Assembly (NCBI RefSeq): GCF_029263785.1
Contig: NZ_JAJUFE010000001.1
Span: 80,459 to 144,458 of the forward strand
DNA length: 64,000 nt
From: Pusillimonas sp.
Lineage (GTDB): Bacteria > Pseudomonadota > Gammaproteobacteria > Burkholderiales > Burkholderiaceae_B
Direction of reading: 5' to 3'
Shown here: in pieces, positions 31,323-64,000 of the stretch
How the letters are laid out: every line of letters starts with the position of its first letter
Position numbering within the stretch: the stretch's first letter is position 1
Position numbers and translations under genes: made by a program
Notes under the pieces: model-generated
Told to the model about the DNA's origin: nothing
Database searches by the model: none
The model's input: only the letters and a program-made list of their open reading frames with translations

Positions 31323-32432
31323 ATGCATCTGCCCGGTTTTGATATTTTTTGTCGAGTTGTCGACAACTACGGCGATATTGGGGTCTGCTGGCGCCTGGCC
31401 AAGCAGTTGGCACAGCACTCCGAGGTAGGCCCGGTACGCCTATGGGTCGATGACCTGGCTTCATTCCACCAAATCGAAAAGTGCGTGCGTCCCACCGCTG
31501 CACAGCAAGTCGCACGAGGTGTCCAGATTCATCATTGGACCCAAACGCTTCCAGATGTTCGTCCGCTGGAGGTGGTCGTGGAAGCGTTCGCCTGCGATCT
31601 GCCACAGATGTTTCTGGATCGGATGACAGACAATCTGTGGATCAACCTGGAATACCTCAGTGCAGAGGACTGGGTGGAAAGTTGTCATGCCCTGCCCTCG
31701 ATTCAACCCAACGGACTGAACAAGTTCTTTTTCTTTCCTGGCTTCACGCCGCGAACCGGCGGCCTGTTGCGCGAACCCGACTTGCTTGATTCGCAAGCGA
31801 CATGGACAGCATTGCCCGAATCACGCCGGGCGCTCCTTGACAAGATCGGCATGCCCGATCATGTGCAAGGGCTATTACTCAAAGGATGGCGTCAGGCGTT
31901 TGTCTTCTGCTACAACGATGCGCCTGCACAGGCTTTGGCCAACGCACTGGGTCATCCCGGGCAACCTACCCTGGCAATCGTTCCACGGGGAGTACTTCCC
32001 GAGCTCTCGCAGCTTCAAAACGAATCGTTCCAGGTATTTGAGTCTCCGTTTGTCGACCAGGACGACTTTGATCACCTGCTATGGTCGAGCGATCTGAACG
32101 TCGTCCGGGGCGAAGATTCGCTTGTCCGAGCCATATGGGCCGGCAAGCCCTTCTTGTGGCATATTTATCGACAAAAGGAAGACGCTCATATGGCCAAGCT
32201 GGATGCCTGGCTCGAACGCACGCACTTAAGCGCCGAATTTAGGCAAACCATTCGCGCCTTCAATCAAACCGACGAGTCTGCCGCCATTGCAAGCCTGCAG
32301 GAAGCCGTCGAGCCCCGCGCCTGGGAGCAATGGCGCATGGAATGTCTGGCCTTTCGTCAGGCAATGACAGACCAGACTTCCCTGGTCACACGTTTACTGG
32401 CGTTTCGCGCGGAAAAAGCCGGCAGCGGGTAA
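31323..32432 (+). CDS. earP: Protein-arginine rhamnosyltransferase EarP
   Basis: Transfers rhamnose from dTDP-rhamnose to Arg32 of elongation factor P, allowing it to relieve stalling at polyproline. The 369 residues have the family signatures: FDIFCRVVDNYGDIGVCWRL at the N terminus, with the two catalytic-site aspartates, and VRGEDSLVRAIWAGKPFLWHIY near the C terminus, with the nucleotide-sugar-binding glutamate. It is 79 bases upstream of efp, whose product carries the target arginine. Confidence 0.96.
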   Translation: MHLPGFDIFCRVVDNYGDIGVCWRLAKQLAQHSEVGPVRLWVDDLASFHQIEKCVRPTAAQQVARGVQIHHWTQTLPDVRPLEVVVEAFACDLPQMFLDRMTDNLWINLEYLSAEDWVESCHALPSIQPNGLNKFFFFPGFTPRTGGLLREPDLLDSQATWTALPESRRALLDKIGMPDHVQGLLLKGWRQAFVFCYNDAPAQALANALGHPGQPTLAIVPRGVLPELSQLQNESFQVFESPFVDQDDFDHLLWSSDLNVVRGEDSLVRAIWAGKPFLWHIYRQKEDAHMAKLDAWLERTHLSAEFRQTIRAFNQTDESAAIASLQEAVEPRAWEQWRMECLAFRQAMTDQTSLVTRLLAFRAEKAGSG

Positions 32433-54359: not shown

Positions 54360-54448
54360 TCGCCACCATGCGGCCCGCCGCGTCATACCCTTGCGCGGCA
54401 GCAGAATCATTAATCCAATCGCCGCACATATCCACTTGGGAGAAGCCC

Positions 54449-55624
54449 GTGCCACGCCTTGCCACCGCTACCTGCATTGAAGACCTGCGCCGGATGGCGC
54501 AACGACGAGTGCCGCGCATGTTTTACGATTACGTTGCCTCGGGCTCGTGGACGGAAAGCACTTATCGGGCCAATGTCGATGACTTTCAACGTCTGAAGTT
54601 CAGGCAGCGCGTAGCCGTAGATATCGGCACACGCAACTTGCGCAGCACCATGATCGGCACCGGGGTCAGCATGCCAGTTGCCTTGGCACCTACTGGGCTG
54701 ACAGGAATGGTGTGCGGTGACGGAGAAATCCTGGCTGCACGAGCAGCCGAACGCGTCGGCGTCCCGTTTACGCTCTCTACGATGAGCATTTGCTCTATAG
54801 AAGACGTTGCAGAGCATACAAGCCGTCCGTTCTGGTTTCAGCTTTATGTGATGCGCGACCGGACCTTCATGCGCAGACTCATCGCACGCGCAAAAGCCGC
54901 CGGCTGCTCGGCACTTGTGCTGACGCTCGACCTGCAGGTCATGGGGCAACGTCACAAGGACATCAAGAATGGTCTGACTGCGCCGCCCCGCCCGACGCTC
55001 AGGAACCTGCTTGATCTGGCCACCAAACCTCATTGGTGCTGGTCGCTGTCCCGGACACGACGTCGCGGGTTTGGCAATATTCTGGGGCATGTGGAAGGCG
55101 TCAGCGACATGTCGTCGTTGGCCTCCTGGACCAACGATCAATTCGACCCGACCTTATGCTGGGACGACATAGCGTGGATCAAGGAAGCCTGGGGTGGAAA
55201 ACTGGTGGTAAAAGGCATCATGGATGCCGAAGACGCCCGGCACGCTGTGCGCTGTGGTGCCGACGCCCTGATCGTTTCCAATCATGGGGGCCGGCAACTG
55301 GATGGTGCGCCCTCGTCCATTGCCGCGCTGCCGCACATCGTGGCCGAAGTGGGCAACGACATAGAAGTATGGTTTGATGGGGGCATTCGCTCGGGGCAGG
55401 ACGTGTTGCGTGCCATTGCCCTGGGGGCAAAAGGCACGTTCATCGGGCGAGCATTTCTTTATGGTTTGGGCGCAGGCGGCCAGGCAGGTGTCGAACGCGC
55501 GCTTGCAATCATTGCCAAGGAGCTGGATATCAGCATGGCGTTTTGTGGCAGGACGGATATCGGCGGCGTGGATCGCTCCATACTGCTCAACCCTCAGATT
55601 TTCGACGACCTGACAAAAATATAA
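54449..55624 (+). CDS. FMN-dependent alpha-hydroxy-acid dehydrogenase/oxidase (LldD-like)
   Basis: Oxidises an L-2-hydroxy acid to the 2-oxo acid with FMN. In 391 residues the family markers are MFYDYVASGSWTESTYRANV, MPVALAPTGLTGMV, the catalytic histidine segment SNHGGRQLDGAPSS and the FMN phosphate-binding WFDGGIRSGQDVLRAIALGA and FIGRAFLYGLGAGG. The GTG at 54449 has GGGAG seven bases upstream and gives family length; an ATG at 54368 has no ribosome site. The substrate could be lactate, mandelate or another hydroxy acid. It converges on the TRAP transporter genes. Confidence 0.92.
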   Translation: MPRLATATCIEDLRRMAQRRVPRMFYDYVASGSWTESTYRANVDDFQRLKFRQRVAVDIGTRNLRSTMIGTGVSMPVALAPTGLTGMVCGDGEILAARAAERVGVPFTLSTMSICSIEDVAEHTSRPFWFQLYVMRDRTFMRRLIARAKAAGCSALVLTLDLQVMGQRHKDIKNGLTAPPRPTLRNLLDLATKPHWCWSLSRTRRRGFGNILGHVEGVSDMSSLASWTNDQFDPTLCWDDIAWIKEAWGGKLVVKGIMDAEDARHAVRCGADALIVSNHGGRQLDGAPSSIAALPHIVAEVGNDIEVWFDGGIRSGQDVLRAIALGAKGTFIGRAFLYGLGAGGQAGVERALAIIAKELDISMAFCGRTDIGGVDRSILLNPQIFDDLTKI

Positions 55625-55631
55625 ACAGCCG

Positions 55632-56936
55632 CTACCGATACAGAAGCGAGGGGAACCACAATGCAATGTCTGGCCACCACACCATCAGCAACAACAGCGC
55701 CAACGGAGCAATCAAGAAAGGGAACACCCCACGGTACAGCACAGACAAGGGGATTTCCGGTGCCTGGGCCCGAATCACGAAAATATTCATGCCTACGGGT
55801 GGCGTGACCAGACCCAACTCGACAACCAGTACCAAAAGTACCCCAAACCAGACGGGATCGAACCCGGCGCCGACGACCAGTGGAAAAAATACCGGCACGG
55901 TTATCAGCACCATTCCGATGCCATCCAGAAAACATCCCATGATGATGTAGAAAACGATCAGGATGAGCATGATGACGGCGGGCGATGCATTGAGGCTTCG
56001 CGTCCATTCGACCAGCGTCTGTGGCAGCTCGGTCAGTACTACAAAATACGAAAAGATGAACGCGCACAGCACAACCAGAAACAACATGCTGGATATCAGA
56101 ACGGTTTCCACAACGGCTTCGTGCACGCGCTTCCAGGTGAGCCGGCCTCGTACAAGACCCAACAGAAATGCACCGAACGATCCGACGGCCGCCGATTCGG
56201 TAGGGCTGAACCAGCCCAGGTAAATACCGCCAATCGAAACGCCGAATAAAAGAGCGATTTCCCACATGCTGACCAAGGCGCGCAATCGTTCACCCCAGCC
56301 CGCGCCGGGCATCGGCGTTTCGTGGTTATCCTTGCGATGCACCAGCCAAGCCAACACCAGGCCGTAGAACAATGCAAGCAGTACAGCAGGAACCAGCGCC
56401 GCCGCAAAAAGCCGTTGCACGGATTGCTCGGCAATAATTGCGTATATGACAAGGATGATTGAGGGCGGAATCAATATGCCCAGCGACGCGCCAGCTGCAA
56501 TCACGCCGGAGCTGAGCTTGTCACGGTATCCCGCCTCTCGCATTTCGGGCAACGCAATTCTGGCCATGGTCGCGGCTACCGCCAATGACGAACCGCAAAC
56601 TGCCCCGAACGCCGCACTGGCACCGAGGGTGGCGTATGCCGGCCCGCCCCGACGCCCCGAGAACAAGGAACGAACCGCACGAAAAAGTTGACTGGAGATT
56701 CCCGCGCTGCTGGCCAGCGCACCCATCAGTACAAACAGTGGAACGACGGAAAGCGCATAGGCCGAGCCCATTTCGAACGGGGTGGAACCCAGAACGATAA
56801 ACGCACGATCAAACCCGCTGATGGCGGCGTAGCCAAACGCCCCGACCAGCCCCATGGCGACTGCAACCGGAACCCTGATGAAAATCAGAAACAACAGAGC
56901 CGCCATTCCCGCCAGACCAATGGCCTGAACACTCAT
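55632..56936 (-). CDS. dctM: TRAP transporter large permease DctM
   Basis: Sodium-coupled TRAP transporter large membrane subunit (434 residues, about 12 membrane segments). Diagnostic segments are FIRVPVAVAMGLVGAFGYAA, GVIAAGASLGILIPPSIILV, LGWFSPTESAAVGSFGAFLL and LGLVTPPVGMNIFVIRAQAP. The start at 56936 overlaps the dctQ stop as ATGA; the frame extends further upstream within dctQ. It is last in a dctP-dctQ-dctM operon. Confidence 0.95.
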   Translation of the reverse strand: MSVQAIGLAGMAALLFLIFIRVPVAVAMGLVGAFGYAAISGFDRAFIVLGSTPFEMGSAYALSVVPLFVLMGALASSAGISSQLFRAVRSLFSGRRGGPAYATLGASAAFGAVCGSSLAVAATMARIALPEMREAGYRDKLSSGVIAAGASLGILIPPSIILVIYAIIAEQSVQRLFAAALVPAVLLALFYGLVLAWLVHRKDNHETPMPGAGWGERLRALVSMWEIALLFGVSIGGIYLGWFSPTESAAVGSFGAFLLGLVRGRLTWKRVHEAVVETVLISSMLFLVVLCAFIFSYFVVLTELPQTLVEWTRSLNASPAVIMLILIVFYIIMGCFLDGIGMVLITVPVFFPLVVGAGFDPVWFGVLLVLVVELGLVTPPVGMNIFVIRAQAPEIPLSVLYRGVFPFLIAPLALLLLMVWWPDIALWFPSLLYR

Positions 56937-57472
56937 TGAATAACTCCGTGAGTTCTCCCGGCTGAAGCCCGACGACGACTTCGTATCAGGTCTGACAGCT
57001 TGAACAATGCAGCAATCAGTGCAGCGAACACGCCAACCAGGCAGGGAATCCACAACCAGTACAACATGATGGGCAGATCAGGCTTACGATCCTGATAGAC
57101 GTAGGCCTCCCAAGCCGGCGTAGGCATGTGCCAAAGCAACATGCCCAGGAACACCGCCGAAAGAAGCAGCCCGACGATCTTGAGCAAGACGACCAGATTA
57201 CTGCTGATGAAATGGTCGATGATGTCGACAGTAATGTGTGTGTCGTCCAGAAAGGCTTCGCCAATTCCGAGAAACACCACAAACACCATCAGAGTTTCAA
57301 CAAGATCGTAGGTACCCAATACGGGAATGCCAAACAGATTGCGCAGCAAAACATCTGCCATGGTGATGCACACCATCATTGCCAGAGCCAACCCGGCAAT
57401 CAGGGTCAGGCCACGCAAGACAAGGCGCATCCAATGATGGATGCGCTGGCCTGATTCAGCCTTGGCCGCCAT
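56933..57472 (-). CDS. dctQ: TRAP transporter small permease DctQ
   Basis: Small membrane subunit with four helices. The family signature appears as ADVLLRNLFGIPVLGTYDLV, followed by ETLMVFVVFLGIGEAFLDDTHITVDII. The ATG at 57472 (MAAKAESGQRIH) is chosen because AGGAG is eight bases upstream; the frame is open nine codons earlier inside dctP. Length is 179 residues. It is translationally coupled to dctM. Confidence 0.92.
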   Translation of the reverse strand: MAAKAESGQRIHHWMRLVLRGLTLIAGLALAMMVCITMADVLLRNLFGIPVLGTYDLVETLMVFVVFLGIGEAFLDDTHITVDIIDHFISSNLVVLLKIVGLLLSAVFLGMLLWHMPTPAWEAYVYQDRKPDLPIMLYWLWIPCLVGVFAALIAALFKLSDLIRSRRRASAGRTHGVIQ

Positions 57473-57473
57473 A

Positions 57474-58496
57474 TCATTGCTCCTTGGAGCGTGCGGCAAC
57501 GGCCTCTCGCAAGCGTTTCAGTGCCTCTTTACCGGGCAAACCCTTCTCTTCGAGCGCTGCCACCTTCTTGCTGATCAGTTCTTCGGTGATCTTGTCATAG
57601 GCGGCAGCGTCTGCCTGGCTAAGCTCGATCAGCTTGACGTTATGCTCTTTCATGTACTCGAGCCCGATTTCGTCGGCCTTGTCGGAAGCGGTACCCACAC
57701 GCTTCGCGCCATCCAGGCCAGTGGTGTCGTCAATGAGCTTTTGAAGGTCGGCCGGCAGCTTGTTATAGCTGTCGGGATTCATAACCATGGCAAAGGTCAC
57801 GACACCGCCATTGATGGTGGTGGCCGACTTCAATTCGGGACCCAACTGAAAACTTTGGGCTCCTTCATAAGACATCAGGGTGCCGTCGATGGTGCCTTTA
57901 CTCAGTGCGTCTGCCACTTCAGCCGGCGCCACGCCAACAGGGGTCGCGCCCAGCGCGGAAATCAGCGAAGCGTATACTGAACCGGGGTGCCGGATACGCA
58001 GGCCATTCATCTGATCCAGACTGGTGACCTCTTTTTTGGCCATCAGTAAGGGAACGGGTGGCGTCGCCATAAAGTACAGAATCTTGACGCCCTGGTATTC
58101 CGGCTCGAGCAGGTCTTTGATATCCATAAGCGCCTGCGAACCGACACGACCATTAGGAATCAGCGAAGGATGCTGCGCCAGTTCGGTCATGGGGAAGCGG
58201 CCGGGAGTCGCGCCTTGCAGCACATAGGCCATGTCTGCCACACCGGTTCGCGCCAGGTCGAATTGGCGGTTTACCGGCCCCATCTGCGAAGAGGGAAAGA
58301 GTTTCAGGATCAGTCGGCCGTTGGATTTTTCGTTAAGTTCTTCGGCCCACCGCGTGATCTCGCGATTGATCATGTGCTTCGGCGGCAAGTAAGTAGAGAC
58401 CTTAAGCTCGTAGGTTTCCTGCGCCTGTGCCGGGGAGAACCCCGCAGCGATGGTTACAGCGGCCAGAGCGGCCAAAAAAGTACGCCTAGTATTCAT
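57474..58496 (-). CDS. dctP: TRAP transporter substrate-binding protein DctP
   Basis: Periplasmic binding protein of 340 residues with a twin-arginine-like start (MNTRRTFLAALAAVTIAAGF) and cleavage near AQAQE. The DctP fold is clear: SNGRLILKLFPSSQMG, MNGLRIRHPGSVYASLISAL with the conserved carboxylate-binding arginine, and VADALSKGTIDGTLMSY. The ligand is probably an organic acid. A near-palindromic hairpin at 58614-58638, upstream of this gene, could be an operator. Its position between a 2-hydroxyacid oxidase and an aryl-acid ligase module suggests uptake of the catabolised acid. Confidence 0.94.
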   Translation of the reverse strand: MNTRRTFLAALAAVTIAAGFSPAQAQETYELKVSTYLPPKHMINREITRWAEELNEKSNGRLILKLFPSSQMGPVNRQFDLARTGVADMAYVLQGATPGRFPMTELAQHPSLIPNGRVGSQALMDIKDLLEPEYQGVKILYFMATPPVPLLMAKKEVTSLDQMNGLRIRHPGSVYASLISALGATPVGVAPAEVADALSKGTIDGTLMSYEGAQSFQLGPELKSATTINGGVVTFAMVMNPDSYNKLPADLQKLIDDTTGLDGAKRVGTASDKADEIGLEYMKEHNVKLIELSQADAAAYDKITEELISKKVAALEEKGLPGKEALKRLREAVAARSKEQ

Positions 58497-58658
58497 AGTT
58501 GTCTCCGTGGTTATGGTGCAGACCCTTCGAGCTTGTGCCCTGTCTTGGGTCTGTCACTTATATTGACTACTTATCCGTACTGCGTTGGGCCGCATTTCTT
58601 TTGCATCAGCGACGTCGGTCGCCTGATGAAGCACGGCTAGCGGCGAAAATCTGAAACA

Positions 58659-59423
58659 TCAGGTCGAGCTTGAAAAACCTCCGTCGATAACAATGACCTC
58701 ACCCGTTACAAACCGGTTCGACTTCACCAGGCTGAGCATGGTTTCGGCGACATCGTCTGCCGTAACGCAACGCTTGAGCGGCGTCAACTTAGCACGACGT
58801 TCCATCAAACGGTCGTAATTATCCTTGAGCATGCGTTTCATCCAGTCGCCCTCCATCCAGCCAGGGGCCACCGCATTCACCCGTATTTCGGGTCCAAGAT
58901 TGTAGGCGAGCACTTTGGTAAGACTTACCACGGCAGCTTTGCTGGTTGCGTATGCCAGGGGTTGAGGGCCCGGGCGCAGCCCCACAATGCTTGCCGTATT
59001 GACCACGCAGCCGTTGCCTGCCGCCTTTAGCATGGGCACTGCTGCCCGGGTAACCTGAAACATGCCGCGGACATTCACAGCAAATACCCGATCCCAGTTC
59101 TCGGCTGTTACTGCTTCAAAATCCTTTGGATCAATCGCCGAAGTGGTTCCCGCGTTATTGATAAGGACGTCAAGACGTCCGAATCGATTCTGGATTTCTG
59201 CCACCATATTGCGAACAGCGGGGTCTTCGCTTACGTCGCACTGCAGCACGATCGTTTTTGCTCCCAATGCTTCGGCCTCGGCAGCCGTTTCGGCGGCGGC
59301 AGCCTGACTGCTGCTGTAGTTGATGGCCACGTCGTAGCCTTCGCGCGCCAACGCCAATACCGCACTGCGACCGATACCTGTACCTCCACCCGTTACCAGG
59401 GCCACAGGTTTCTGCTGATCCAT
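58659..59423 (-). CDS. Short-chain dehydrogenase/reductase (FabG-like)
   Basis: NAD(P)-dependent oxidoreductase of 254 residues. It has the classical SDR motifs: TGGGTGIGR (11-19), NNAG, the catalytic Ser in NTASIVGLRPG and YATSK for Tyr/Lys, then VNAVAPGWMEGDW. The substrate is unknown. GGAG precedes the ATG. Its promoter carries the first TGAACATGTTCT palindrome, and it is divergent from the aryl-acid ligase that carries the second, so both are probably controlled by the TetR protein encoded downstream. Confidence 0.94.
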   Translation of the reverse strand: MDQQKPVALVTGGGTGIGRSAVLALAREGYDVAINYSSSQAAAAETAAEAEALGAKTIVLQCDVSEDPAVRNMVAEIQNRFGRLDVLINNAGTTSAIDPKDFEAVTAENWDRVFAVNVRGMFQVTRAAVPMLKAAGNGCVVNTASIVGLRPGPQPLAYATSKAAVVSLTKVLAYNLGPEIRVNAVAPGWMEGDWMKRMLKDNYDRLMERRAKLTPLKRCVTADDVAETMLSLVKSNRFVTGEVIVIDGGFSSST

Positions 59424-59451
59424 GCCGTCTCCTTGCCAGATTATTTTTTTA

Positions 59452-59463
59452 TGAACATGTTCT
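59452..59463. promoter_or_regulatory. TetR-type operator, copy 1 (SDR promoter)
   Basis: TGAACATGTTCT, a palindrome with core GAACATGTTC. It adjoins the -10 box of the SDR promoter on its downstream side, where bound repressor would cover the transcription start. Confidence 0.7.
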
Positions 59464-59492
59464 ACTTTAGATCACGATCATATTTCTGGCAA
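59464..59492 (-). promoter_or_regulatory. Candidate SDR promoter
   Basis: On the minus strand TTGCCA (59492-59487), a 17-base spacer and TAAAGT (59469-59464), directly followed by the AGAACATGTTCA palindrome. The -35 box matches consensus at five positions and the -10 box at four. Confidence 0.65.
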
Positions 59493-59552
59493 GAACAAAA
59501 AATCCCGTTCGGCCGGGTCGGAAAGCCTTCACTCCCTGGCTGATCTATTTCG

Positions 59553-59581
59553 TTGACACTCCACTGATCAGACCATAAACT
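59553..59581 (+). promoter_or_regulatory. Candidate promoter of the aryl-acid ligase-amidohydrolase operon
   Basis: Perfect TTGACA (59553-59558), a 17-base spacer and TAAACT (59576-59581). The last T of the -10 box is the first base of the second palindrome, so the layout mirrors the SDR promoter. Confidence 0.7.
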
Positions 59582-59592
59582 GAACATGTTCA
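59581..59592. promoter_or_regulatory. TetR-type operator, copy 2 (ligase promoter)
   Basis: TGAACATGTTCA, a perfect 12-bp palindrome immediately after the -10 box and 98 bases before the ligase start codon. Confidence 0.72.
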
Positions 59593-59690
59593 TCAAAATC
59601 AAAAGAAAAATGGCGGCACGATAGATTGCGACGGCAAACCATGGCTGGTCGATTTTGCAGCCGCTGATAAAACACTTCCAGGAGGAAACA

Positions 59691-61358
59691 ATGCTAGAAG
59701 GAGTCGTCCCTTTTCCACCCGACTTTGCACGCCGATACCGAGAAAAAGGATATTGGCAAGATAAATCGCTGGCGCAGGAGTTTCGGGTGGTGCTGCAAAA
59801 ATACGCGGATCGGATTGCTGTCATCGATGGAGCCCGGCAATACACCTATTGCCAACTCGATGAAGAATCCAACCGCCTGGCATTGAACCTTCTTGACCTG
59901 GGGCTGCAACCACTGGATCGCGTCGTAGTACAGCTTCCCAATGTGGCGGAGTTTGTCATTCTTTACCTCGCACTCCAGAAGATCGGCTGCATTCCCATCG
60001 CTGCGCTTTCGAGTCACCGCTTTCTGGAGGTCAGCCAGTTTGTCTCGCTTTCCGGCGCGGTGGCGTGCGTCAGTCCCGAAAAGCAAGGTGAATTTGATTT
60101 TCAGGAAATGATCGCTCGCGTGCAGCAACAAAGTCCGTGCCTTAAGCACGGCATTATTCTGGGAACTGCCCGACAGGGATTTCAATCCCTGCGCGAACTG
60201 ATAAGCAAGACGCCCACACGCGGCCCCAAAACGCTGGAACAGATCCAGATCGATCCTACCGACCCCGCTGTGTTCCAGCTTTCCGGCGGTACTACCGGGG
60301 TTCCAAAGCTGATTCCCCGCACCCACAACGATTATGCGTACAACTCCAAGATTGCGGCAAAAACTTGCCGTATCGAGGGGCATCACGTCCTTCTGGTCGT
60401 TCTGCCAATTGCTCACAATCTTCCACTGGCCTGCCCAGGTATCCAGGGCTTCATGTTCCAGGGAGCCAAGGTAGTGCTGTCGGCAAGTACACGTCCTCAG
60501 GACATCTGCGCTGCCATACAAGAGCACGGTGTGACACACATCAAGGTTGTGCCGGCCCTGCTCATCCGGCTGCTGAATGACCCATCCATCAGCAAATACG
60601 ATCTCTCATCGCTTCAAGTGATTCAGAGCGGAGGGCAACGACTGCAGCCCGAAGTACGTTTGCTGGCTCGCAAGCTCATCCCGAATGCCTTCATCCAGGA
60701 GAACTTCGGCATGGGTGAAGGCATGCTGTTCTTCGTTCGCCACGACGACCCCGAGGATGTGCGCCTGGAAACCGTTGGCAGCCCCGTGTGCGAAGACGAC
60801 GAAGTACGTATCGTGGACGAGGACGGCATTGACGTTCCTTTCGGTGAAACCGGCGAAATGTGGTGCAGGGGGCCCTATACGCTGCGAGGCTACTTTGGCG
60901 TCCCCGAGTACAACAAAACCGCCTTTACTCCCGATGGCTTCTACAAATCGGGCGATCTGATGCGGCAGCACCCTTCAGGGCGGTATATGGTCGAGGGTCG
61001 CCGCAAGGACCTTATCAATCGCGGTGGTGAAAAAATCAGCGCCGAAGAAATCGAGAACCTGATCCTGTCGCATCCATCCGTCAAGAACGTTGCGTGTGTG
61101 CCCATTCCTGATCCCGATATGGGCGAGCGGATGTGCGCGTGCGTTGTATTGCACGAAGGCGCCAGCCTCGATTTCGATTCACTCAAGTCCTACCTGATCG
61201 AAAAAGAAATCGCCAAATACAAGCTGCCCGAGCGCCTGGAAATAATGGATGACTTTCCGCTTTCAACCTTTGGAAAGGTCTCAAAAAAGAAACTGCGCGA
61301 AATGATCACCGAAAAAATTAACGTAGAACAACGCGGTCAAGCCTCTGCCGCGCAATAA
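59691..61358 (+). CDS. EntE-like aryl-acid:AMP ligase, probably salicylate type
   Basis: ANL-superfamily enzyme activating an aromatic acid as its adenylate, then possibly to CoA. The 555 residues align well with EntE: PPDFARRYREKGYWQDKSL, FQLSGGTTGVPKLIPRTHND (P-loop, about 195-214), NFGMGEG, INRGGEKISAEEIENL and the catalytic lysine in STFGKVSKKK (Lys529). The pocket reads AHNLPLACPG (241-250): the HN pair is typical of hydroxybenzoate ligases, and Cys248 stands where I recall Ser in dihydroxybenzoate and Cys in salicylate enzymes. No carrier protein or NRPS is nearby, so a catabolic CoA ligase is more likely than a siderophore enzyme. AGGAGG precedes the ATG. Confidence 0.9.
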   Translation: MLEGVVPFPPDFARRYREKGYWQDKSLAQEFRVVLQKYADRIAVIDGARQYTYCQLDEESNRLALNLLDLGLQPLDRVVVQLPNVAEFVILYLALQKIGCIPIAALSSHRFLEVSQFVSLSGAVACVSPEKQGEFDFQEMIARVQQQSPCLKHGIILGTARQGFQSLRELISKTPTRGPKTLEQIQIDPTDPAVFQLSGGTTGVPKLIPRTHNDYAYNSKIAAKTCRIEGHHVLLVVLPIAHNLPLACPGIQGFMFQGAKVVLSASTRPQDICAAIQEHGVTHIKVVPALLIRLLNDPSISKYDLSSLQVIQSGGQRLQPEVRLLARKLIPNAFIQENFGMGEGMLFFVRHDDPEDVRLETVGSPVCEDDEVRIVDEDGIDVPFGETGEMWCRGPYTLRGYFGVPEYNKTAFTPDGFYKSGDLMRQHPSGRYMVEGRRKDLINRGGEKISAEEIENLILSHPSVKNVACVPIPDPDMGERMCACVVLHEGASLDFDSLKSYLIEKEIAKYKLPERLEIMDDFPLSTFGKVSKKKLREMITEKINVEQRGQASAAQ

Positions 61359-61381
61359 ACCCCGATTGAACGGAAGGCCTT

Positions 61382-62224
61382 ATGAGAATCATCGATTTGC
61401 ACTGCTACCCCAATACACAAGAGTGGATTTCCTGCCAGCAGCCCTATGTCGACGCGTTGGCCCAGTACTGGAATCGTCCCTGGACACCAAAAACTGAAGA
61501 AGAGGTGGTAAAGGATTTTACCGACGCAGGGGTCGAAGCCGTCCTTGTTGCTCTTGACCTTGAAACCACAGTGGGAACGCCGCCCTGCTCTAACGAGTAT
61601 GTGCACGGCATGTGGAAGCGAAACGAAGGACGAATCATCCAGGCGTGGGCTGCGGTCGAGCCCGCAAAAGGAGAAATAGCCATACGTCAGGCGCGACAGG
61701 CCATACAGGAGTTCGGCATGATTGGGTTCCATTTTCATCCCATCATGCAGCATTTCTCGGTGGACGACCGCCGTTATTACCCCCTGTTTGAAGAAATTGC
61801 TCACCTCGGGGCCGCTGTCATGATTGACGTCGGCACCACGGGCATGGGGGCGGGAATGCCAGGAGGCATGGGCGCAGTCATTCGTCACGCCCACCCGGCT
61901 GCCATCGATCAGTTGGCGGCCGATTTTCCAACCCTCAAGATCATCATGGCTCACCCGGGCTGGCCATGGGTCGATGAAACCACGGCCGTCGCACTTCACA
62001 AGGGGAATGTCTACTGGGAGATGTCGGGCTGGGCACCGAAATACTTCTGGCCGCAGCTTAAAGTAGATATGCGCAGCCGTTTACAGGACAAGATCATGTT
62101 TGGCAGCGACTACCCCAGCATGCCCTACGAACGGCTGTTGCGAGAATGGGCGGAACTCGGATACAGCGACACCATCATGGAAAAGATTTTCCACGGCAAC
62201 GCCGAGCGGATACTCGGCCTGTAA
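61382..62224 (+). CDS. Amidohydrolase-2 family protein
   Basis: A 280-residue TIM-barrel metal-dependent hydrolase/decarboxylase family member (ACMSD/gamma-resorcylate decarboxylase superfamily). Family landmarks are IIDLHCYPN at the N terminus, FHFHPIMQHF, IIMAHPGWPWVDE (metal histidine on strand 5) and KIMFGSDYPSMPYERLL (metal aspartate on strand 8). The usual HxH on strand 1 reads HCY, so one metal ligand seems replaced. It is 24 bases after the ligase and surely co-transcribed. It could hydrolyse or decarboxylate a ring-derived intermediate; the reaction is unknown. Confidence 0.9.
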   Translation: MRIIDLHCYPNTQEWISCQQPYVDALAQYWNRPWTPKTEEEVVKDFTDAGVEAVLVALDLETTVGTPPCSNEYVHGMWKRNEGRIIQAWAAVEPAKGEIAIRQARQAIQEFGMIGFHFHPIMQHFSVDDRRYYPLFEEIAHLGAAVMIDVGTTGMGAGMPGGMGAVIRHAHPAAIDQLAADFPTLKIIMAHPGWPWVDETTAVALHKGNVYWEMSGWAPKYFWPQLKVDMRSRLQDKIMFGSDYPSMPYERLLREWAELGYSDTIMEKIFHGNAERILGL

Positions 62225-62226
62225 GT

Positions 62227-62868
62227 TTACTTGGCGGGATTCAGCCCATTTATATAAATACGGAAGTGCTTGCGCAAAGTCGCAAGCCCTTCCTTGAGAT
62301 CGGGATCATCTTCGGAAATCCATAAGCGCACAGCACCGGCGTATACATAAAACAGCCCCAATGCAATAGTGGCCGGATTCTCGCGAGAGTGGATCCGGCC
62401 CTTCTTTTGCGCCTCGACAACAAGTTGTCGCACGGTGTCGATAACACGCAGCCGGTTGTCATTGAACTCGCCTGACAGTTTGCCGTGTCGATAAAAAGTC
62501 AGCTCTCGCAGCAATATGCGAGACAAAGTGGGGTTGCCCGCAAAGTCTTCGTACAGAAATGAAAAGAAAGAAACCAGTTGTTCGAGCAGCGATTTTCGAG
62601 GGCTGATGGCCTGCTGTGCCCGATGCTGGATATCGTTGAGGTGATCGACGTAGATGAGGAAAATGAGATCCCGCTTATCGTCGGCATAATTGAACAATGT
62701 GCCCAAACCCACTCGAGCACGCTTGGCAATATCACGCGTTGTGGCCGCGTCGTACCCCAGCTCGGTAAAAAGCTCTCGTGCCGCAGCTTTGATGCGCGAC
62801 AACTTTTCCAGTTTATTTTGTTCCCGCAAACCCAGGACGGGCGCATCGGCTTCGCCGCTATTGTTCAT
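62227..62868 (-). CDS. TetR family transcriptional regulator
   Basis: A 213-residue regulator with an N-terminal TetR DNA-binding domain: SRIKAAARELFTELGYDAAT then TRDIAKRARVGLGTLFNYAD (about 24-65), and a ligand-binding C-terminal domain. It converges on the amidohydrolase gene with two bases between stops. A TGAACAAGTTCA palindrome lies 132 bases upstream and related sites are at the SDR and ligase promoters, so it is the likely repressor of this module and of itself. The start at 62868 is an ATG without a clear ribosome site; the frame extends to a TTG at 62910. Confidence 0.93.
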   Translation of the reverse strand: MNNSGEADAPVLGLREQNKLEKLSRIKAAARELFTELGYDAATTRDIAKRARVGLGTLFNYADDKRDLIFLIYVDHLNDIQHRAQQAISPRKSLLEQLVSFFSFLYEDFAGNPTLSRILLRELTFYRHGKLSGEFNDNRLRVIDTVRQLVVEAQKKGRIHSRENPATIALGLFYVYAGAVRLWISEDDPDLKEGLATLRKHFRIYINGLNPAK

Positions 62869-63000
62869 ATATAGGATTGACTTGTTTTGGTCGTGGTTAA
62901 AAACCGGCAACTACGAAAAGCTCCGCCTCGAATATGAGCATGCCCAAAAATGTCGGCGATGCGCTACAGGCAGCAGATACTTTATCCTGTAACCCCAAAA

Positions 63001-63012
63001 TGAACAAGTTCA
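63001..63012. promoter_or_regulatory. TetR-type operator, copy 3 (upstream of tetR)
   Basis: TGAACAAGTTCA, the same half-sites as copies 1 and 2 with an AA centre. It is in the 314-base gap between the argE-like gene and tetR (62869-63182). In that gap I otherwise see only the argE terminator and no convincing promoter boxes or small gene. Confidence 0.6.
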
Positions 63013-63149
63013 AAAAATAGTTGGAGCACTTATCCGGCATGATGGCTCGTTGCGAGCCGGAGCGCCTGAGCGCGTTGCTGACACCCACCAGGCCAAGCAG
63101 AACATGGCGCCCCGGCATACGCCCTGACCAGTTCGGTTAGTCAGCCGAA

Positions 63150-63175
63150 GAAAAGGCGGAGCGAACCACCCTTTC
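63150..63175 (-). terminator. Probable terminator after the argE-like gene
   Basis: On the minus strand GAAAGGGTGG and CCGCCTTTTC form a ten-pair stem with two wobble pairs around a six-base loop, with the T-run inside and just after the 3' arm, seven bases past the stop codon. Confidence 0.5.
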
Positions 63176-63182
63176 TGACTCA

Positions 63183-64000
63183 TCAAGCCTGGTGCAGATG
63201 GTGTGCCAAACGAAGAAGCATGGCGTCGCATGCCTCCAATTGCTCGATCGCGACGAACTCGTCGGGTTTGTGGCCCTGATCCATACTGCCTGGCCCACAA
63301 ATTACCGCCGGAATGCCCGCCTGATCAAACAGGCCCCCTTCGCTGCCAAAAGCTACCGTGCTGAACTCGGAGAAACCTGTAATGGCCGCTAGCAATTGCG
63401 CTGCCTCGCTATCCGGTGGCGTGGCCAGACCAGGGTACTCAGCAAGCCTTTCAAATGTAATAGCGGTCTGCGCGCTGACCGCCTGCATCCGTGGAAGTAA
63501 TTCATTCTTTGCATAGCTTTCCAGCCTGGCGTGAACCGCCTGCGGATCGAACCCCGGCAATGCGCGCACCTCAAAATCGAATTCGCACTCTGCGGGAACA
63601 ATGTTGAGTGCTCGCCCCCCCTTGATCAAGCCGGTTTGTATCGTCGAATACGGGGGATCGAATCGATCGTCGTGAAGCGCGGGATGAGCCAGGTCGCGGG
63701 CGATATCGCCGAGATGGCAGATCAGCTTTGCGGCATACTCGATAGCATTGACGCCCTGCGGAGCGTAAGCGGAATGGCAGGCTGCGCCATGGACTTTGCA
63801 GCGCATGGCCAGCTTGCCTTTATGCCCCAGCACCGGTTGCAAGGAGGTGGGCTCGCCTATAAGGCACAAGGCAGGTTTATTGCTGCGCTTTTCCAGCTCG
63901 GCCAACATGGAACGAACACCCAGGCAGCCTACCTCTTCGTCATAAGAAAACGCCAGATGCACCGGCCGGGCAAGCGGCTTCGATAAAAAGACAGGAAGCA
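63183..64000 (-). CDS. argE: Acetylornithine deacetylase (ArgE/M20 family), 5' end outside the window
   Basis: Partial gene: the frame stays open to the right edge of the window, where it reads LPVFLSKPLARPVHLAFSYD, so the N-terminal third is missing. The visible 272 residues contain the catalytic SYDEEVGCLGVRSML (general-base Glu), CLIGEPTSLQPVLGHKGKLA, the M20 dimerisation domain and the metal histidine in GHKPDEFVAIEQLE. The GEPT and SYDEEVGCLG signatures support ArgE, which makes ornithine from N-acetylornithine. Related M20 deacetylases of other N-acyl compounds cannot be excluded. Confidence 0.9.
   Translation of the reverse strand, partial: LPVFLSKPLARPVHLAFSYDEEVGCLGVRSMLAELEKRSNKPALCLIGEPTSLQPVLGHKGKLAMRCKVHGAACHSAYAPQGVNAIEYAAKLICHLGDIARDLAHPALHDDRFDPPYSTIQTGLIKGGRALNIVPAECEFDFEVRALPGFDPQAVHARLESYAKNELLPRMQAVSAQTAITFERLAEYPGLATPPDSEAAQLLAAITGFSEFSTVAFGSEGGLFDQAGIPAVICGPGSMDQGHKPDEFVAIEQLEACDAMLLRLAHHLHQA

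Follow-up and report, generated by a model that had tools for sequence, protein, structure and literature searches.

The question raised by this locus is how genes for an SDR oxidoreductase, a TRAP transporter, an acid ligase and an amidohydrolase, which surround a divergent promoter region in a Pusillimonas genome, are controlled. A sequence-only reading of the 64,000-nt stretch analysed here (the window) had proposed that three copies of a 12-nt palindrome place them under a neighbouring TetR protein. The features are collected in Table 1. A pattern scan of the window confirmed palindromes upstream of the SDR gene, the ligase‒amidohydrolase pair and tetR, exactly where that reading had put them, and the tetR ORF was also correctly assigned, with an ATG at 62868 (a TTG-extended frame reaches 62910). 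The dctP gene is probably co-transcribed with the SDR gene, as no terminator-like site was listed in the gap between them and the gene order is kept in two related loci (L052, L053). Domain scans of the ligase were run from 59694. Beyond the module, the window carries a gene for an FMN-dependent lactate-dehydrogenase-like protein (54368–55624; NF008398), convergent with the TRAP genes.

Table 1. Genes, predicted promoters and predicted operators of the module (window coordinates).
Feature	Position	Strand	Basis or remark
TRAP transporter DctM	55632..56939	minus	PF06808; frame extends to 57053
TRAP transporter DctQ	56933..57499	minus	PF04290
TRAP solute-binding protein DctP	57474..58496	minus	PF03480
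SDR oxidoreductase, 254 aa	58659..59423	minus	PF13561/PF00106
Predicted TetR operator O1, TGAACATGTTCT	59452..59463		adjoins 3' end of SDR promoter −10; invariant in 4/4 close genomes, window included
Predicted sigma-70 promoter, SDR-TRAP, TTGCCA-17-TAAAGT	59464..59492	minus	promoter scan
Predicted sigma-70 promoter, ligase-amidohydrolase, TTGACA-17-TAAACT	59553..59581	plus	promoter scan and 4-genome alignment
Predicted TetR operator O2, TGAACATGTTCA	59581..59592		overlaps −10 end and expected start point
AMP-binding acid ligase, EntE/salicylate-AMP-ligase-like	59691..61358	plus	ATG at 59691
Amidohydrolase_2 family protein, 280 aa	61382..62224	plus	PF04909
TetR/AcrR-family regulator, 213 aa	62227..62868	minus	PF00440, E 2e-12
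Predicted weaker tetR promoter, TTGTTC-17-TAAAGT	62979..63007	minus	read by eye; not in promoter scan
Predicted TetR operator O3, TGAACAAGTTCA	63001..63012		upstream of tetR

The SDR and ligase genes diverge from a 267-bp region that contains two of the three palindromes. The copies at 59581 and 63001 are exact matches to TGAACWWGTTCA and that at 59452 matches at 11 of 12 positions; one further copy with a single mismatch, at 31717, lies within a predicted ORF. The claimed geometry, promoters on opposite strands each ending where a palindrome begins, was borne out with a small refinement: the −10 of the SDR promoter abuts its palindrome, and that of the ligase promoter overlaps by one base, its last T being the first base of the palindrome. 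At tetR, the predicted −35 (TTGTTC) lies inside the palindrome, and a similar arrangement is found in L052. Promoter matches alone prove little, because five were found in 58400–63200, the SDR and ligase promoters being two of them, and shuffled sequences gave a mean of 2.9.

Scatter of the 12-mer through the genome had been suggested as a check, and exact copies proved to be few. The whole 2.7 Mb genome holds three, two of them in the module, and no copy of a control pattern. Among relatives, genomes G206, G123 and G124 carry two, three and four exact copies, of which two, two and one are in the module, and the four stray copies of G123 and G124 are all inside ORFs. G205, of the same genus and with neither a TetR nor an amidohydrolase match, has none. 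Weak copies mean little by themselves (32 genome-wide with up to one mismatch against 18 for the control; 10 in the window with up to two mismatches against 5.8 expected). The third exact copy of the host genome lies on contig C45 and extends over the initial codons of a gene that by eye resembles an ABC substrate-binding protein. It is possibly a further target, but more likely represents the codons for MNKF by chance. Ring-cleavage-like genes (a LigB-like protein and an alpha/beta hydrolase, by eye) adjoin this copy (L050, 6365–11319).

Related loci were collected by a TetR-alignment scan of named genomes, which gave 27 loci chosen by TetR homology alone. The SDR/ligase/amidohydrolase/TetR order is kept in FW106-10 bin.30, Eoetvoesiella caeni and Pusillimonas noertemannii, with TetR proteins 80, 77 and 68% identical, and the TRAP genes are kept in two of these three (L052, L053). 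When the SDR‒ligase regions of the four genomes, window included, were aligned, the mean column identity was 63%, and amid this diverged intergenic DNA the blocks TATGAACATGTTCTACTTTAGA and TTGACN-17-TAAACTGAACATGTTCA were invariant in all four. All four also keep the mismatched final base of the first palindrome; at the SDR promoter the −10 and operator are invariant while the −35 varies. Loss of the sites from relatives with the same gene order had been named as counter-evidence. The SDR/ligase pair is present in 3/3 such relatives; the tetR site is retained in E. caeni and P. noertemannii (L052, L053) and lost in FW106-10 (L051), and is thus kept in 2/3.

Twenty-four of the loci are distant, and the 18 with an SDR of at least 50% identity were counted. 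These come from Betaproteobacteria and Acidobacteriota, with TetR proteins 44–57% identical; two (L054, L056) have no ligase or amidohydrolase match, and two others (L057, L060), on short contigs, cover the module only in part. A core GAACNNGTTC occurs in the 300 bp preceding the SDR gene in 12/18, compared with a mean of 0.075 and a maximum of 1 in 200 dinucleotide shuffles. If TGAACNNGTTCA with one mismatch is also accepted, the count rises to 15/18 (shuffle mean 0.15, maximum 2). L057 and L059 lack a site in that interval even when one mismatch is allowed. In L058 the site is farther upstream, ahead of an extra gene resembling (by eye) a substrate-binding protein; it was noticed afterwards and is excluded from the counts. 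A further locus found via the amidohydrolase, L102, has a TetR of 39% identity and the module but no site, and was kept apart; with it, the counts become 12/19 and 15/19. Duplicates were excluded (L098, L099 and L100 repeat L058, L059 and L073; L038–L040 repeat L051–L053).

Spacing from the promoter recurs as well. A script count puts the start of an exact TTGACA 28 nt ahead of the palindrome in 9/15 distant sites, the distance also seen at 59553. The nine are not fully independent, because two pairs among them are similar: over 60 bp, L054 and L056 share 70% and L060 and L064 60%. The implied −10 hexamers (GAAAGT, GAATAT, AAAAGT, GAACAT, GAGACT) are weak, all have A at position 2, and take their final T from the first base of the palindrome. 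In two Acidobacteriota (L055, L065; 2/15) TTGACA starts 13 nt before the palindrome, which then occupies the spacer between the −35 and the expected −10. In L054 (2850–3000) and L056 (9830–9965) the region between the divergent SDR and tetR genes holds two imperfect palindromes, separated by 16 bp (TGAACATGTTTG, TGATCATGTTCA).

This placement bears on the direction of the effect. Some TetR-family proteins are activators, and FasR, one of these, is among the weak family matches of the TetR protein, so that the protein might bind the palindrome and activate, or both activate and repress. The sites, however, overlie the −10 and start point or the −35, where a bound protein would block polymerase, and in L055 and L065 the site is a few bases downstream of TTGACA; activation is accordingly considered improbable, and repression by TetR is preferred.

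Whether the palindrome belongs to the regulator or to the enzymes can be judged from modules that lack a linked TetR. These were found in searches with the amidohydrolase, which gave hits in 8/399 genomes in the order and 12/268 in the family, and in plasmids (153 records, of which two at 60% identity or more were used). At phylum level the same query returned 1/398, its own genome, and no further modules, and the SDR as a class-wide query returned 1/369, again its own genome (at most seven candidates scored per genome). Twelve modules have no TetR homologue in the fetched 14–19 kb (L096, L097, L101, L103, L104, L116–L122). In none of the 12 was a core or one-mismatch site found in the 300 bp upstream (for L096, upstream of the ligase, its first gene). 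Comparison of TetR-linked with TetR-less loci gave Fisher p values of 3e-4 (core) and 1e-5 (one mismatch allowed), which shared ancestry makes optimistic. A LysR gene adjoins the module in 10/12 TetR-less and 0/21 TetR-linked loci (tblastn, three LysR queries, E 1e-15), and these LysR proteins are 57–67% identical where not themselves the query. Seven of the 12 modules are from one genus, whose genomes carry TetR paralogues of 38–47% identity elsewhere. L097 is a close parallel to L069 and L071, with the same hydrolase-thiolase-amidohydrolase-ligase-SDR-ankyrin order (hydrolase and ankyrin by eye), but it has no tetR between hydrolase and thiolase and lacks the site, and its genome gives no match to the TetR protein of the window at E 1e-12.

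Across phyla, then, the palindrome goes with the TetR gene rather than with the enzymes. A chance origin of palindromes beside AT-rich promoters, which the commonness of one-mismatch copies in the genome might favour, is rejected on this co-occurrence (15/18 against a shuffle mean of 0.15, and 0/12 without TetR); with conservation in four genomes and recurrence across phyla, it is scarcely credible. A second alternative is that another regulator binds the palindrome and the TetR gene is a mere neighbour, which would fit the lack of an own site at most distant tetR genes: the core is upstream of tetR in 4/24 (shuffle mean 0.06), and in three of those four the region is shared with a divergent enzyme gene. 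Yet loci picked by TetR homology alone have the site in 15/18 cases against 0/12 without TetR, L097 lacks both TetR and site despite a gene order like that of L069 and L071, and the LysR of the TetR-less group occurs in none of 21 TetR-linked loci. We regard this alternative as unlikely, though slightly less so than activation.

In the reading we favour, the TetR protein very probably uses GAACNNGTTC, represented here by TGAACWWGTTCA, as its operator, and would thereby repress the SDR-TRAP and ligase-amidohydrolase genes and, in this lineage, tetR. This reading is favoured because exact copies of the palindrome are rare genome-wide, and because it is conserved, held at a fixed spacing from TTGACA in many relatives, present with TetR and absent without it; and further because the HTH is conserved, the core is the same as that of KstR, and MbdR is a working precedent (see below). 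Counting against it are the common one-mismatch copies, the siteless loci L057, L059 and L102, the position of the L058 site ahead of an extra gene, loss of the tetR site in L051 and its scarcity in distant loci, and the TetR loci L067, L074 and L076, which have neither the module nor a site close upstream of tetR. Of the original proposal, repression by TetR is supported, and the proposed autoregulation through a separate site is restricted to this lineage. Binding, direction of effect, effector and substrate are given here as we infer them. A TetR dimer would occupy the 12-mer, blocking the stretch between −10 and start point at 59452 and 59581 and the −35 of tetR at 63001. The TRAP transporter would import an acid for activation by the ligase, and a CoA thioester formed in that or a later step would release the repressor.

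The TetR protein belongs to the TetR/AcrR family by its N-terminal HTH (PF00440, 47.1 bits against a gathering score of 24), has 395 homologues at E 1e-3, and its predicted model is all-helical with a mean pLDDT of 92. In a fold comparison the closest solved structures include KstR and FadR (the latter an acyl-CoA complex); EthR and QacR score about equally close, and the comparison therefore does not favour a CoA effector. Site-bearing TetR proteins share a strongly conserved HTH (VGLGTLFNYADDKRDL, with close variants). Nine loci with TetR paralogues but no module (L041–L049, four from the genus with seven TetR-less modules) have no exact TGAACWWGTTCA, and their HTH reads VGIGTLFTYA or similar, compared with VGLGTLFNYA. 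In two from one genus (L045 at 9528 and L049 at 9947; TetR about 42% identical) a one-mismatch TGAACATGCTCA or its complement lies about 152 bp upstream of tetR, and paralogues of this type may use a related site. Six distant loci with TetR but no SDR match of at least 50% identity (L063, L067, L074–L077) are outside the 18. The exact site of L063, about 337 bp ahead of tetR, falls beyond the 300 bp limit used; L074 has its exact copy 4.2 kb downstream, L075 carries a variant, AGAACGTGTTCC, 52 bp upstream, and L077 has TGAACATGTTCG about 2.3 kb upstream. No site was found within 350 bp upstream of tetR in L067, L074 and L076, which have no module, although L067 and L074 have the HTH type of the site-bearing proteins.

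Two characterised TetR systems are comparable. MbdR of Azoarcus sp. CIB represses 3-methylbenzoate degradation; its palindromic operators lie over the promoter of its own gene and over those of the catabolic cluster, which has a CoA ligase among its genes, and a pathway CoA thioester releases the repressor (PMC4424350, available portion). The predicted arrangement here, a TetR with palindromes at the promoters of a ligase-containing cluster and of its own gene, is alike, and the MbdR structure 4uds matches the TetR profile (E 7.5e-10). The MbdR operator, given there as ATACN10GTAT, differs from the palindrome; eight places in the window match it when one mismatch is allowed (7.2 expected), none of them at the promoters in question, and it was rejected as a candidate. 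KstR represses a lipid and sterol regulon in mycobacteria from TAGAAC(N2)GTTCTA (PMC1995591, available portion), which has the GAAC-N2-GTTC core in common with the palindrome but different outer bases. That core (AACNNGTT) is in all three sites. The KstR 14-mer TnnAACnnGTTnnA matches with one mismatch at 59451 and 63000, 59580 not being listed, among 31 window matches against 14.4 expected. The neighbours here are instead an acid-ligase module, and the TetR scores 36.3 bits against the KstR family NF033703, below the cut-off of 280, although in a KstR-family search of its own genome it is the best match, if a weak one. Literature searches for TGAACATGTTCA gave no title on bacterial regulation, and those combining GAACNNGTTC, GAACATGTTC and TetR none on a TetR operator, the bacterial titles including Helicobacter urease control and Staphylococcus genomics. 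The portions available of a RefZ paper (PMC6657595) and a piperine paper (PMC12753220) describe no operator or hydrolase relevant here.

On balance we lean towards a wider interpretation, in which an undescribed TetR subfamily with a KstR-type GAAC-N2-GTTC core and a TTGACA-17-operator promoter forms a portable switch that serves an orphan module for CoA-dependent acid degradation in Betaproteobacteria and Acidobacteriota, the module being re-wired elsewhere to LysR and the operator lost or gained with the repressor. The switch itself is predicted to be of an ordinary kind, MbdR-like in its working. A testable operator and regulon are thereby provided for the TetR subfamily, and the same enzyme module is seen to be paired with two regulator families, of which the palindrome follows one. 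Once found, the inducer would give a lead to the substrate of the ligase-SDR-amidohydrolase pathway, which is widespread and as yet uncharacterised, and the promoter with its operator would be a ready-made biosensor.

As to that pathway, the gene set likely degrades an aromatic-type acid. The ligase matches salicylate-AMP ligase 5wm2 over its whole length (E 2.5e-143), and is in this respect like the EntE, DhbE and salicylate-AMP ligases; it differs in scoring 523.1 bits against TIGR02275 ((2,3-dihydroxybenzoyl)adenylate synthase), below the cut-off of 723.55, and in that none of the eight proteins scanned, from the module and its neighbourhood, is the product of a siderophore gene. The amidohydrolase (2601 homologues at E 1e-3) is 38% identical to a Rhizobium protein annotated as 4-hydroxyphenyl-beta-ketoacyl-CoA hydrolase, in a cluster that includes a gene annotated as feruloyl-CoA synthase. 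In some other genomes a 3-oxoadipyl-CoA thiolase and either one or two enoyl-CoA hydratases accompany the module; L068 has a 4-hydroxybenzoate 3-monooxygenase as well. Our reading is that together these would degrade an aromatic or related acid by a beta-oxidation-like route. A ligase together with a beta-ketoacyl-CoA hydrolase is described for p-hydroxycinnamate and acetovanillone catabolism (CouL/CouO, HpeE/HpeF; PMC9618137, available portion), and the RHA1 cou genes are under the MarR regulator CouR (PMC4737184, available portion). The likeness lies in the pairing of ligase and hydrolase, with the ligase here EntE-like and the hydrolase compared with the annotated Rhizobium homologue.

The first strand of the amidohydrolase reads DLHCY, with Tyr at the second His of HxH, which we take to be the metal motif of the amidohydrolase superfamily; ten of 11 aligned proteins, query included, share this, the Rhizobium homologue being without it. 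Two of the TetR-less modules, each with a thiolase and two crotonases, are on plasmids, one of Acidovorax typed as mobilizable (L103, NZ_AP029020.1) and one of Sphaerotilus typed as non-mobilizable (L104, NZ_CP035710.1). A divergent LysR gene adjoins both, and the Acidovorax module is also near a gallate dioxygenase gene and catA.
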